IMG/VR virus record: IMGVR_UViG_3300027793_000138
Span: 1 to 40,631 of that record
Length of the DNA: 40,631 nucleotides
Source of the DNA: a virus
Direction: 5' to 3' (one strand)
Positions 6,983-17,204 of the stretch are shown piece after piece (the stretch's first letter is position 1; every line of letters begins with the position of its first letter). Both the position numbers and the translations under genes were made by a program. The notes under the pieces are model-generated. The model had not been told where the DNA came from, made no database searches, and saw nothing but the letters and a program-made list of their open reading frames with translations.

Positions 6983-7134
6983 ATAGTTATTACCTTTCCA
7001 CACACCATGCATCCACGATATGATTTTCCTGTAAATGGGCATGAAACTTTTTCATTAAGATTGTGACCGTTTTTTTTACATCTTATTGATCCAATAGCCA
7101 TTTTTATCATTGACATTGCATTTACATTATTCAC
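6979..7134 (-). CDS. Small zinc-finger protein, DUF1660-like
   Basis: A 51-residue ORF in the gap between the halogenase and the coiled-coil gene. The pattern RCKKNGHN ... SCPFTG ... CMVCGKV (CxxxGH followed by CxxC) is that of small phage zinc-finger proteins of the DUF1660 type. GTG start at 7134 overlaps the halogenase stop and has AGAGG upstream; in-frame ATGs at 7116, 7110 and 7101 are alternatives. Its stop overlaps the next start (ATGA), which supports translation. The function of the family is unknown. Confidence 0.72.
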   Translation of the reverse strand: MNNVNAMSMIKMAIGSIRCKKNGHNLNEKVSCPFTGKSYRGCMVCGKVITI

Positions 7135-8695
7135 TATGATATTTCCTCTTTATATATTGATACGAAGTTTCTGATTCAAGTGCTAAATTTTCCCATATTT
7201 TTTTGTTATTATCTAAATTTTCAAACACTATTTTTATTTTTTCCTTATCCAGATTACCATACAGTATATCAGAAAAAGCCAAAGCAACGCTATCAAGAAT
7301 AAAATAGTTCATCCCAGTTGCAATCCAACCATTTCCACCTCTTAATGGCATTGAACTTATTGAGTTCATTTTAATTGTTGCCATGTCATTTAAGTGACTA
7401 AAAACACTTGAACTGTTTTCATCATTAAAAAATGTTCTATTAAAATTATTTTTCCAATATTCAGAATCATCTCTTAAACTAAGAGCATAGTGTAGTCTAA
7501 TAAACTCTACAAAGTTGTCATATATCTTTTTTGTAGCCTTATTGTATACGTCTCTATCCCATTGAGAAATTTTATCATGCTGTAATGTTTTGATTAAACA
7601 GAACAAAAATTCATGAACAGTAAAAAGCCCATTGCTTTCTAGTGGCTCAATAAAACCTGCAGCAAGACCAATTGCAACTACATTTTTGACCCAAGTACGT
7701 TTATGAATACCAACTCTCATCTGTATATTTCTAAAATCTAGGCTTTCAACTTCTTCTTTTGTTCTTGGTATTTTTAACTCTGTCATTAAGTATTTTTTAA
7801 ATTCTTCAAGTGCATCTTCATGTGTTGTATACTTATCAGAATATACATAGCCAGAACCTAATCTAGAAAAAAGAGGTATATTCCAACACCAGCCATTTTT
7901 TAGGGCTGTGCATCTTGTAACATTTTCAATTTCAATTTCTGGGTCCTTATACTGTATTTGTGTTGCCCATGCGTTTGTATTAGGAAGTAGATCAGTATAA
8001 GAAATAAATTCTTCATTAAGAGTTTTGTCTAGTAATAAACTCTTAAACCCAGTGCAATCAACAAATAGGTCTGCAGAAACAGTTGTTCCATCCGACAAGA
8101 ATAACTTATCTACACCATTGTCGTTTGTGGTAATTTTTTCTATAGTTCCTACAATTTGCTTAACATTTTGTGGCAAACAATAATTATTCTTTAGCCAATC
8201 TGCAAACTTTATTGCGTCAAAATGTAATGCAGTATTAAGAGTTTGTGTAAAATTACCATAATGGTTTTTATCAGTTAGCCTATTATGTTTAACTAGATGT
8301 GCTGCTGGAAAATATGACTCTGCAAAATCTGTAACTGGTATAGTTTTATCTAAATTTTTTCTTACCATCCAATCATCTAAAGATGATCCTTCTTTAGTAA
8401 AGGTAGGCGCTCCAAAAGGATAAATGAAATCTGGTTCACCAGATTCTTTATAAAAATTTCTAAATTGAATTGCAAGTTTTACCGTGGCATTTGTATATTC
8501 AAAAAATGATTCTCTGTCAATTCCTAAATACTCAAGATAATGGTTTATGCCTTCGTATGTACTTTCTCCAACCCCAACTCGTGGAATATCATTGCTTTCA
8601 AGTACATAAATATTTTTTTCAGGAAAAGATTTTATTAGTATTGCTGCTGTCATCCATCCTGCAGAGCCACCACCAACTACAACAATATCTTTCAT
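7127..8695 (-). CDS. FAD-dependent tryptophan halogenase-like enzyme
   Basis: Predicted to make hypohalous acid from reduced FAD, oxygen and halide and to halogenate an aromatic ring. The 522-residue length is normal for the family. N-terminal FAD motif GGGSAGWMTAA at residues 7-17, PRVGVGESTYEG for the second flavin contact, ATVKLAI around residue 70 with the probable catalytic lysine, and the diagnostic halogenase motif WxWxIP (GWCWNIP). The C-terminal part has GLAAGFIEPLESNGLF, also typical. No flavin reductase is encoded nearby, so reduced flavin must come from the host. It overlaps the 76-residue gene upstream by 4 nt (ATGA). Substrate unknown: free tryptophan, a peptide or another aromatic. 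Confidence 0.92.
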   Translation of the reverse strand: MKDIVVVGGGSAGWMTAAILIKSFPEKNIYVLESNDIPRVGVGESTYEGINHYLEYLGIDRESFFEYTNATVKLAIQFRNFYKESGEPDFIYPFGAPTFTKEGSSLDDWMVRKNLDKTIPVTDFAESYFPAAHLVKHNRLTDKNHYGNFTQTLNTALHFDAIKFADWLKNNYCLPQNVKQIVGTIEKITTNDNGVDKLFLSDGTTVSADLFVDCTGFKSLLLDKTLNEEFISYTDLLPNTNAWATQIQYKDPEIEIENVTRCTALKNGWCWNIPLFSRLGSGYVYSDKYTTHEDALEEFKKYLMTELKIPRTKEEVESLDFRNIQMRVGIHKRTWVKNVVAIGLAAGFIEPLESNGLFTVHEFLFCLIKTLQHDKISQWDRDVYNKATKKIYDNFVEFIRLHYALSLRDDSEYWKNNFNRTFFNDENSSSVFSHLNDMATIKMNSISSMPLRGGNGWIATGMNYFILDSVALAFSDILYGNLDKEKIKIVFENLDNNKKIWENLALESETSYQYIKRKYHSE

Positions 8696-8922: not shown

Positions 8923-9221
8923 TATTGTTCTTCCATTTTAGAATAATTAAACAAATCTTCTAAAGATTCAAAACCAGTATCATTTTCAATTTCAAGAGAG
9001 TTAAGAAGAATGTTCCAAGTTTCTTCAATATATCTTTTTGCTAGTTCGGTTGGTATGACTAATTCTGAATCAATTAAAAAAGCAAGGGGCAACCCTAAAT
9101 CATTATAAGATATAAAATCTTGAAATGTTTTTTCATGCTTATGATTAATCCATAAATCGGCAAGTATTTCACAAATACTTTCAAACGGTGTTAATTCATT
9201 TCCGTTGTCAGAGATTTCCAC
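8922..9221 (-). CDS. 99-residue acidic helical protein, unknown
   Basis: An acidic, mostly helical protein (TPFESICEILADLW, then ELAKRYIEETWNILLNSL) with no recognised domain or membrane segment. GTG start with GGGGTGAGGT just upstream. It overlaps the end of the WhiB gene by 31 nt in another frame, and its stop overlaps the next ATG by one base, so it is transcribed and translated together with WhiB and the halogenase. Confidence 0.68.
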   Translation of the reverse strand: MEISDNGNELTPFESICEILADLWINHKHEKTFQDFISYNDLGLPLAFLIDSELVIPTELAKRYIEETWNILLNSLEIENDTGFESLEDLFNYSKMEEQ

Positions 9222-9478
9222 ACCTCACCCCATTTTTCTTTTGTCTTGTGTTTGTTGAACTCCCTAGAGATTTCTCCACCTTCTAAGTATACACCACCCC
9301 AAACACCCCACTCTTTGCCAGATACACCATTAGCAAAACATATTTTTGCAACTGGACAGGACTCACAAAAATTATCTATGTTAAATCTTAAATCAATATC
9401 ATCTTCATATTTATCAAAATATAAATTAGTCTCTAAACCAAGACACTTGGCTTCATCTTTCCATAAATGCTGCTTCAC
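9191..9478 (-). CDS. WhiB-family iron-sulphur transcriptional regulator
   Basis: WhiB-like proteins hold a [4Fe-4S] cluster through four cysteines and bind the primary sigma factor; they are restricted to actinobacteria and their phages. All four cysteines are present at residues 12, 38, 41 and 47 (C-x25-C-x2-C-x5-C), followed by the signature turn GKEWGVWGG at 54-62 and a basic C-terminal segment (EFNKHKTKEKW) for DNA contact. The 95-residue length is typical. GTG start with AAGGAG six bases upstream. It begins the tightly overlapping set that includes the halogenase, so it may regulate host or phage promoters at the stage when that set is expressed. This is the best host marker in the window. 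Confidence 0.93.
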   Translation of the reverse strand: MKQHLWKDEAKCLGLETNLYFDKYEDDIDLRFNIDNFCESCPVAKICFANGVSGKEWGVWGGVYLEGGEISREFNKHKTKEKWGEVWKSLTTEMN

Positions 9479-15807: not shown

Positions 15808-15836
15808 AGTATACCCCTAAACACTCACAACGTCAA
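15808..15836 (-). promoter_or_regulatory. Strong promoter giving a leaderless mRNA
   Basis: TTGACG (15831-15836), 17-bp spacer, TATACT (15808-15813) on the - strand, inside the 3' end of the Ntn-hydrolase gene. The -10 ends seven bases before the ATG at 15801, so +1 should be the A of the start codon. Confidence 0.72.
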
Positions 15837-16347
15837 CTGGACCCATGCATGATGGGCTAAATTTAATTGCTGAATTTACAGCGCCCACTACTCGTTTTCT
15901 TGCATCTTTTGTTTTTTCTGTAGCATTTAAATATCCATAGGCATATTCTGCACCTGAACCCATAGCCAAATACGGCAAGGTATATTTAGATAAAGACATA
16001 TCTGCAGAACTATGCTCATATATATTTCCACGAACTGCAATAATTAAACCAAGGTCTCCATCTTTAGATGTATCTACCCAAAAATCATTATAAAAATTTT
16101 TAAGTTGTTTTATAAATTTAGTTTGCATAAATTTGTCAGTGTCTTTAATGTCTGGAACATAAGGATTAAAATTATAACGAATACGCTCACCATCCATAGC
16201 GCCTGCATAACCAATTAAATAAGGTCCTAGTTTCCAAACTTTTGGACTAGACAATGCTAAAATTGTTCCATCGTCAGATGCACCACGATCACCAGCCATG
16301 TAAACCTTATTATTTATTTCATCACGAACAACTGCAATACAAGTCAT
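15817..16347 (-). CDS. Proteasome/HslV-like Ntn hydrolase
   Basis: A 176-residue protein of the proteasome beta/HslV superfamily. After removal of Met1 the N-terminal residue would be Thr (MTCIAVVRD), the nucleophile position. The next strand ends in MAGDRGASDDG, where GDR and the acidic residue match the family. Then LGPYLIGYAGAMDGERIR corresponds to the GxxG-containing strand. The late GSGAEYAYGYL helix matches the HslV-type end. It is single-domain without an ATPase partner in the window, so it might work with host Mpa/ARC or ClpX-like factors or act as a peptidase or amidase. It has its own promoter and ribosome binding site (AGAGGGG). Confidence 0.85.
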   Translation of the reverse strand: MTCIAVVRDEINNKVYMAGDRGASDDGTILALSSPKVWKLGPYLIGYAGAMDGERIRYNFNPYVPDIKDTDKFMQTKFIKQLKNFYNDFWVDTSKDGDLGLIIAVRGNIYEHSSADMSLSKYTLPYLAMGSGAEYAYGYLNATEKTKDARKRVVGAVNSAIKFSPSCMGPVDVVSV

Positions 16348-16368: not shown

Positions 16369-16397
16369 ATTATACATCATTGAACTGACAAATTCAA
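16369..16397 (-). promoter_or_regulatory. Promoter of the Ntn-hydrolase gene
   Basis: TTGAAT (16392-16397), 17-bp spacer, TATAAT (16369-16374) on the - strand, exactly filling the gap between the upstream stop codon and this gene. Leader about 15 nt with AGAGGGGTGG. Confidence 0.75.
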
Positions 16398-17147
16398 CTA
16401 TATCAAATTATTTTTTATTTCAGATAATATTAACTTATCCATCTTTAATTTTTTAAAAACCTCATAGCGATCCGACAAAGGAAGATTTTTTCCTTGCCAT
16501 TCTGGTGCGGAAACACAGTCTGCCATATATTTAAATAATCTATCATTTAATTTAAATCCAATTAAATCAATACTTTTGTTTGTTTCTGTTGTAAGATAAA
16601 ACAGTGGTTCATTTTTTTCAATAACTAAGTTTCCTTTTGGCTTCCACATTTGTACCTCAAGGGTATAAGGCCTAAACCATTTTGAAACATCAAAGGATCC
16701 TGAAATAACAGTTCCAAATTTTGTGTATTTGGGTTCTGTTAAAAATGGAGGAGTAAAAGTTAAATCTATTGTTTCTTCAGAAAAAAATATAAACCCCATT
16801 TTAAGAAAAAGAACTGGCTTATTCTTTAGTGTTGGAGGTCTCATTAACTGAAGTTGTGGCTGTTTGTCTAAAACTGAATTAATAATTGGATTTTTTTCAT
16901 CAGTAAAATCATAAAAATAATTTATGCTAACTGGACTTTTAAACACATGGGTATTTTTAAAATAATTACTTGAAGCAGGGCAGGTAAAAAAATGACCATT
17001 TTGACCCATATCTTTACTTTTATCTTTTGCTAATTCATACATTAAGGTTTCTGGCTTTAAGTAAAAGGACTTAATGTCTTCTTCATTTATTAGTTCAGGC
17101 TCAAAGACTGGTGCCCAGTAAACAGTAATTGTGTTTTTTTTACTCAT
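16398..17147 (-). CDS. Phage auxiliary protein, beta-rich, possibly DUF6065-like
   Basis: A 249-residue soluble protein. The N terminus is TITVYWAPVFEP; then FFTCPASSNYF, PVSINYFYDFTDE, FTPPFLTEPKYTKFGTVI, KWFRPYTLEVQMWKP and a C-terminal helix-rich part (SDRYEVFKKLKMDKLIL). The series of beta strands with Pro and aromatic residues resembles that of the protein at 5833-6564 (a Cys-Pro/Met-Pro turn near residue 60, then a GVI/GSFD strand and a W-x-P-x-G turn). A distant relationship is suggested but not shown. It is controlled by a strong promoter inside a long inverted repeat. Function unknown. Confidence 0.7.
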   Translation of the reverse strand: MSKKNTITVYWAPVFEPELINEEDIKSFYLKPETLMYELAKDKSKDMGQNGHFFTCPASSNYFKNTHVFKSPVSINYFYDFTDEKNPIINSVLDKQPQLQLMRPPTLKNKPVLFLKMGFIFFSEETIDLTFTPPFLTEPKYTKFGTVISGSFDVSKWFRPYTLEVQMWKPKGNLVIEKNEPLFYLTTETNKSIDLIGFKLNDRLFKYMADCVSAPEWQGKNLPLSDRYEVFKKLKMDKLILSEIKNNLI

Positions 17148-17148
17148 A

Positions 17149-17199
17149 AACCCCTCTTAAAACTTTTATATTTAAAGTATATCAGTTTTAAAAGGGGTT
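17149..17199 (-). repeat. 16-bp inverted repeat around the -10 box, overlapping the ribosome binding site
   Basis: Arms at 17149-17164 and 17184-17199 with a 19-base loop. In - strand RNA all 16 pairs form (one U-G): AACCCC pairs with GGGGUU, and the AAGAGGGG of the ribosome binding site is inside the 3' arm. The -10 box TATACT is in the loop. RNA started at this promoter lacks the 5' arm and cannot fold this way; read-through RNA can. Confidence 0.8.
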
Positions 17200-17204
17200 G
17201 TCAA
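17176..17204 (-). promoter_or_regulatory. Consensus promoter of the 16398-17147 gene
   Basis: TTGACA (17199-17204), 17-bp spacer, TATACT (17176-17181) on the - strand; the best sigma70/SigA match in the window. Leader about 22 nt, ending in GAGGGG before the ATG. Confidence 0.85.

Follow-up and report, generated by a model that had tools for sequence, protein, structure and literature searches.

In the fold-back inhibition of IS10, read-through transposase mRNA folds and hides its ribosome binding site (RBS), whereas RNA started at the promoter does not, the fold being made by the terminal repeat of the transposon, unlike in the family described here. The closest described systems are the leaders of bacteriophage T4 genes e and soc, in which a long read-through RNA hides the RBS in a hairpin and a promoter in the 5′ part of the structure yields a translated RNA lacking the 5′ strand (PMC3014915). 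This nested promoter-in-hairpin logic has been proved for e and I-TevI, and in the case of gene e the structure lowers synthesis about 100-fold (PMC3014915, PMC2988022). Leaders of this kind also guard genes inserted into foreign operons, namely I-TevI, I-TevII, I-TevIII and segB of T4 and mobE of Aeh1 (PMC2988022). The nested promoter of e and soc is a T4 late promoter (TATAAATA, gp55), and the hidden RNA is early. The locus described here follows the same principle as the T4 leaders; what is new is the promoter class, the phages and a positional rule.

The window, by which we mean the whole stretch of DNA analyzed, is a 40.6-kb IMG/VR virus record. A WhiB-family regulator gene points to an actinobacterial phage, and so does a terminase that shares 53% identity with those of large Streptomyces phages. 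The sequence-only reading had placed a TTGACA-N17-TATACT promoter before a 249-aa gene, a 16-nt repeat with a 19-base loop around the −10 box, and the RBS in the 3′ arm of that repeat, and all three held at base resolution (Table 1). The promoter spans 17204-17176 on the minus strand, the first A of the 5′ arm also closes the −35 box, and the ATG follows at 17147. The match to consensus is 11 of 12 bases, the best among 34 promoter-like sites between 12 and 24 kb. The single imperfect pair of the dyad is T·G on the sense strand, and because this pair splits the arms the dyad was overlooked by a repeat search with 9-base seeds. No second copy of the arm sequence with fewer than 3 mismatches was found within the window, and the hairpin matched no family in an Rfam search.

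Table 1 Features of the window around the promoter-hairpin and other genes mentioned in the text.
Feature	Position	Strand	Remark
−35 box TTGACA	17204-17199	minus	overlaps first base of 5′ arm
−10 box TATACT	17181-17176	minus	inside hairpin loop
5′ arm AACCCCTTTTAAAACT (anti-RBS)	17199-17184	minus	occupies −35/−10 spacer
3′ arm AGTTTTAAGAGGGGTT	17164-17149	minus	RBS within
RBS AAGAGGGG	17158-17151	minus	inside 3′ arm
Expected transcription start	17168-17170	minus	from promoter geometry, 6-8 nt past −10 box
249-aa gene	16398-17147	minus	PHROG 17480; predicted to be under hairpin control
Holin-like gene, 103 aa	17215-17526	minus	membrane-type sequence, holin role putative; upstream of hairpin
HslV-like peptidase gene	15817-16347	minus	PHROG 1040
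Plain HslV-like gene promoter TTGAAT-N17-TATAAT	16369-16397	minus	promoter-like match
Terminator AGGGGGTTAGCCAAGCGCTAACCCTCT-TTTTTATTGC	20480-20454	minus	strong
WhiB-family regulator gene	9191-9478	minus	Pfam match
Tryptophan-halogenase-like gene	7127-8695	minus	assigned by eye
Five tRNA genes (Met, Asn, Glu, Thr, Arg)	1691-2067	plus	most genes on opposite strand

Folding of RNA from 17204 to 17147 gave −22.4 kcal/mol compared to −7.8 ± 2.5 kcal/mol for shuffled sequences (z −5.9, reached by 0 of 200 shuffles). Read-through RNA folded at z −4.8 to −5.9 relative to shuffles, whereas RNA from 17169 onward folded no better than shuffles, as the sequence-only reading had anticipated for the two transcripts. 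A chance dyad was ruled out by the shuffles and by the relatives.

In order to follow the arrangement in relatives, we assembled about 280 loci (2.1 Mb) from relatives of the holin-like protein, relatives of the HslV-like protein and a DNA pattern scan; since the scan enriches for hairpins, a separate tally was kept of the loci obtained through protein searches alone. The same layout was present in about 100 distinct IMG/VR relatives, with arms that diverge yet remain complementary. A scan of 3047 distinct promoter-like sites returned 106 sense duplexes of −20 kcal/mol or stronger compared to 33 antisense, about 20 of the 106 being coding repeats without a start codon. Nearly all real nested hairpins share one genomic position: 101 of 108 selected cases lie directly 3′ of the holin-like gene, two of the others have too little upstream DNA, and five lie elsewhere, two of which look like chance occurrences. 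At L024:6434 and L076:1157, nested promoter hairpins occur at a place other than behind the holin-like gene, and their stems do not include the RBS. When the complete genome of DSL-LC01, a distant relative, was scanned in three pieces, none of its genes was preceded by a convincing nested hairpin.

At least seven unrelated families are represented among the genes behind the hairpin; the HslV-like peptidase is the commonest, and the others include an M78/IrrE-like metallopeptidase, a tetrapyrrole-methylase-like protein and unknown genes of 249 aa, of about 230 aa (two kinds) and of 59-68 aa; in a variant represented by L020 and L021, an endolysin lies downstream. The inserted genes guarded in T4 and Aeh1 are homing endonuclease genes, whereas here they are peptidases, the methylase-like gene and unknowns. 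In contrast to e and soc, the arrangement here is tied to one genomic position and to several gene families.

A dyad around a promoter is usually an operator, and as one arm fills the −35/−10 spacer, the repeat could also have been read as a DNA site whose two arms, on either side of the −10 box, are bound by a dimeric repressor or activator. The arms, however, vary widely among relatives while their complementarity is retained (for example CCCCTTTTAAAACT, CCCCTTCAGATAA, GCCTACCTCTGA and AAAGCCCCCTAGTG). Pairs were counted in an anchored arms-only alignment with a constant artificial linker, which replaced a first MAFFT alignment that had mis-registered some 3′ arms and which leaves out members without the CCCC/GGGG core. 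In this alignment, 96.2% of cells were paired compared to 86.9% after shuffling, pairing peaked clearly at slide 0 with every slid register far worse, and none of 500 shuffles equaled the family on any of the five covariation measures. Compensatory double changes were found at 7 of 11 stem pairs, one of which occurs as UA, CG, AU, UG and GC, so the compensating changes looked for in relatives exist in quantity.

The deviations from Watson-Crick pairing carry a strand signature. Across 36 distinct stems, chosen by a score that treats all non-Watson-Crick pairs alike, there were 47 G·U, 5 A·C and 7 other deviations (p 1e-9, a nominal value as the stems are related by descent, with the G-rich arm also constrained by its RBS role). 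If the 5′ arm drifted freely, however, changes that break the pairing should also be common, and they are not seen. The single U·G pair taken as a hint of RNA in the window therefore stands for a family-wide bias. The sense duplex exceeded its reverse complement in stability in all 57 cases, whereas a DNA palindrome or operator site has no strand preference, and neither symmetric two-strand constraint nor conserved arm sequence was found. The asymmetry and the G·U bias together reject the operator and support an RNA stem; as the main function, an operator is refuted by the strand asymmetry and is the least probable reading of the dyad, and a cruciform is excluded on the same ground. Comparison across the family shows a predicted sense-strand RNA stem, covering the RBS, to be conserved. 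The count of G·U against A·C offers a simple test of whether a dyad at a promoter is an RNA hairpin or a DNA operator.

The predicted cost of opening the RBS had a median of 18.2 kcal/mol in read-through RNA compared to 3.4 kcal/mol in promoter-born RNA, and the two differed by more than 5 kcal/mol in 95 of 95 modeled cases. The RBS was covered by the 3′ arm in every protein-coding member modeled, across unrelated genes. These modeled costs favor the proposal that the site would be hidden in read-through RNA and open in RNA born at the nested promoter. An RBS-hiding hairpin alone would look alike if it were a riboswitch, a thermometer or a protein-bound leader of a transcript started farther upstream, with TTGACA and TATACT not acting as a promoter. 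This is very improbable, as TTGACA-N17/18-TATACT is kept in nearly all members despite the changing arms and the loop consists of the −10 box rather than a ligand pocket, with no Rfam match. In 44 aligned relatives, hand-picked for TATACT or a near box, TATACT was invariant, and TTGAC was invariant across the same 44.

The hairpin tracks position rather than gene. When the HslV-like gene directly follows the holin-like gene, the hairpin is present in 77 of 77 distinct cases, compared to 0 of 12 when the two are separated and 1 of 21 when no holin-like gene was recognized. Loci fetched by protein alone gave the same pattern (adjacent, 42/42; separated, 0/3; no holin-like gene found, 0/9). On the HslV tree, the separated hairpin-free state needs seven changes, at least six of them forced by supported branches. 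Most relatives have the HslV-like gene adjoining the holin-like gene and bearing the hairpin; in the window it sits one gene farther away, and its plain promoter shows no hairpin pairing with its RBS (−7.4 kcal/mol). Where the two genes are separated, it is mostly the inserted gene that bears the hairpin (the window, L118, L140/L180, L171, L205 and L078/L083). The exceptions are L110, whose inserted gene has a weak, decayed stem and no standard start codon, and L079, whose inserted gene has no hairpin. A hairpin tied to the HslV-like or the 249-aa gene itself is thus ruled out, and comparison shows the predicted hairpin to belong to the post-holin place and to move to whichever gene occupies that spot. 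A scan of genome contigs with the HslV-like protein found no relative.

The sole hairpin without a recognized holin-like gene (L200) occupies the same place behind an unrelated membrane protein, and L109, downstream of the same kind of protein, lacks a hairpin. This protein (118-135 aa, ..LDARLKFxLGxTLG..) replaces the holin-like gene in L200, L117, L151, L161 and L109; in L117, L151 and L161 the endolysin comes immediately behind it, ahead of an HslV-like gene that lacks the hairpin.

Other devices were also found at this junction. Searching with the holin-like protein yielded 61 distinct post-holin junctions. A nested hairpin was present at 17 of these, an ordinary terminator at 26 and a small nested hairpin followed by a tRNA at 10, while 8 had none of the three. 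Three of the 17 (L017, L018 and L041) have the −10 box in the loop of a terminator-like stem with the RBS outside, which is the nested logic with predicted termination in place of RBS hiding. The loop in question is that of GGGGATAGGTTATAATTGACCTATCCCC (L017:5310, L018:1235, L041:5314, L020:5314 and L021:385), and a T-run lies behind the stem in L017, L018 and L041. Immediately behind the holin-like gene in L023-L040 (e.g., L035:4366-4420) are tRNA promoters, TAGACA-N17-TATAGT, with a −10 box that forms part of a 9-10 bp RNA hairpin, variable in its stem and flush with the tRNA 5′ end; RNase P cleavage would leave this hairpin at the 3′ end of the upstream mRNA. The tRNA hairpins hide no RBS, and their deviations are 8 G·U compared to 0 A·C. 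Given these tRNA cases, the stem at the junction may serve something besides RBS hiding.

The end of the holin operon thus usually carries a hairpin device, which supports a theme of insulation and leaves room for a role at the mRNA 3′ end. The main job of the hairpin could in this sense be to form the 3′ end of the mRNA from the holin operon, by weak termination or by blocking 3′ exonucleases, with the shortness of the junction as the only reason for the RBS to lie in the stem. The ordinary terminators, the flush tRNA hairpins and the three stems with T-runs would fit such a role, as would the moderate T-richness that many members show after GGGG (mean nT 2.85, within the 2.0-3.5 of terminators there), and a short U-rich tail might terminate RNA in some of them. 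From the true stem end, however, the tail is weaker (mean nT 1.98), the window stem is followed by TATGAGTA with no U-run, the loop is long (19 nt in the window), and the RBS is covered in every modeled protein-coding member whatever the gene. We regard a main role as mRNA 3′ end as unlikely, but the stem may terminate part of the transcripts or protect mRNA 3′ ends.

The reading that we favor, and consider likely on the basis of the sequence comparisons and modeled opening costs, is a promoter nested in an RBS-hiding hairpin that silences read-through RNA and spares promoter-born RNA. A host sigma-type promoter would lie nested in the hairpin at the end of the operon closed by the holin-like gene. 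Read-through RNA from that operon would contain both arms, and the 5′ arm, copied from the −35/−10 spacer, would block translation of the next gene by pairing with its RBS. RNA from the nested promoter would start downstream of the 5′ arm, as the start expected from promoter geometry suggests, and its RBS would be free, so that the next gene would be made only when its own promoter fires. Both the start site and the translation block are inferred, whereas the RNA interpretation of the hairpin is supported by the covariation within the aligned stems.

As in e, soc and I-TevI, the 3′ arm contains the RBS and, by sequence geometry, the predicted promoter RNA lacks the 5′ arm. The gene e logic that had been suggested for the window is backed by the compensating changes in relatives, here with a host sigma-type promoter. 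In place of the T4-type late promoter the family has TTGACA-N17-TATACT, and the phages are unrelated to T4, the terminase of the window being nearest to those of Streptomyces phages; the family would thus act in the manner of the T4 leaders without being one of the T4 late type. With a host-type promoter, in contrast to T4, the time switch may run in either direction. The rationale may be one of timing, with the own promoter early or constitutive and read-through later or stronger; expression of the next gene could then be early or continuous, and sealed off from the operon running into it.

More tentatively, and with rather less confidence than in the nested hairpin, we propose an insulating module at the post-holin junction, retained or re-formed there regardless of the gene behind it. 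The module would come in three forms that can replace one another, with the promoter in an RBS-hiding stem, in a terminator loop or in a stem flush to a tRNA. It would both end the late message from upstream and leave expression of the next gene to that gene's own promoter. If this is true, accessory genes could be added behind the holin-like gene without expression from the late message. The positional rule suggests such a purpose for leaders of this type, namely insulating a gene from the incoming operon. These results carry a regulatory trick best known from T4 over to uncultured freshwater phages, a large group with actinobacteria as their apparent hosts, and the roughly 100 natural variants provide a series for measuring the stem stability needed to silence read-through.

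Finally, the window shows some features of the surrounding gene order. A strong terminator separates the gene of an Ig-like secreted protein from that of a PA14 protein and forms the upstream boundary of the short operon whose last gene is the holin-like one. Beyond the junction, most genes have their own promoter-like site close upstream (17204-14196, minus strand), including those for the 249-aa protein, the HslV-like peptidase, a small acidic protein, Hsp20 and a CHAP endolysin, and this stretch is a run of accessory genes with putative single promoters. Farther along are a tryptophan-halogenase-like gene and five tRNA genes, the latter on the strand opposite to most genes.
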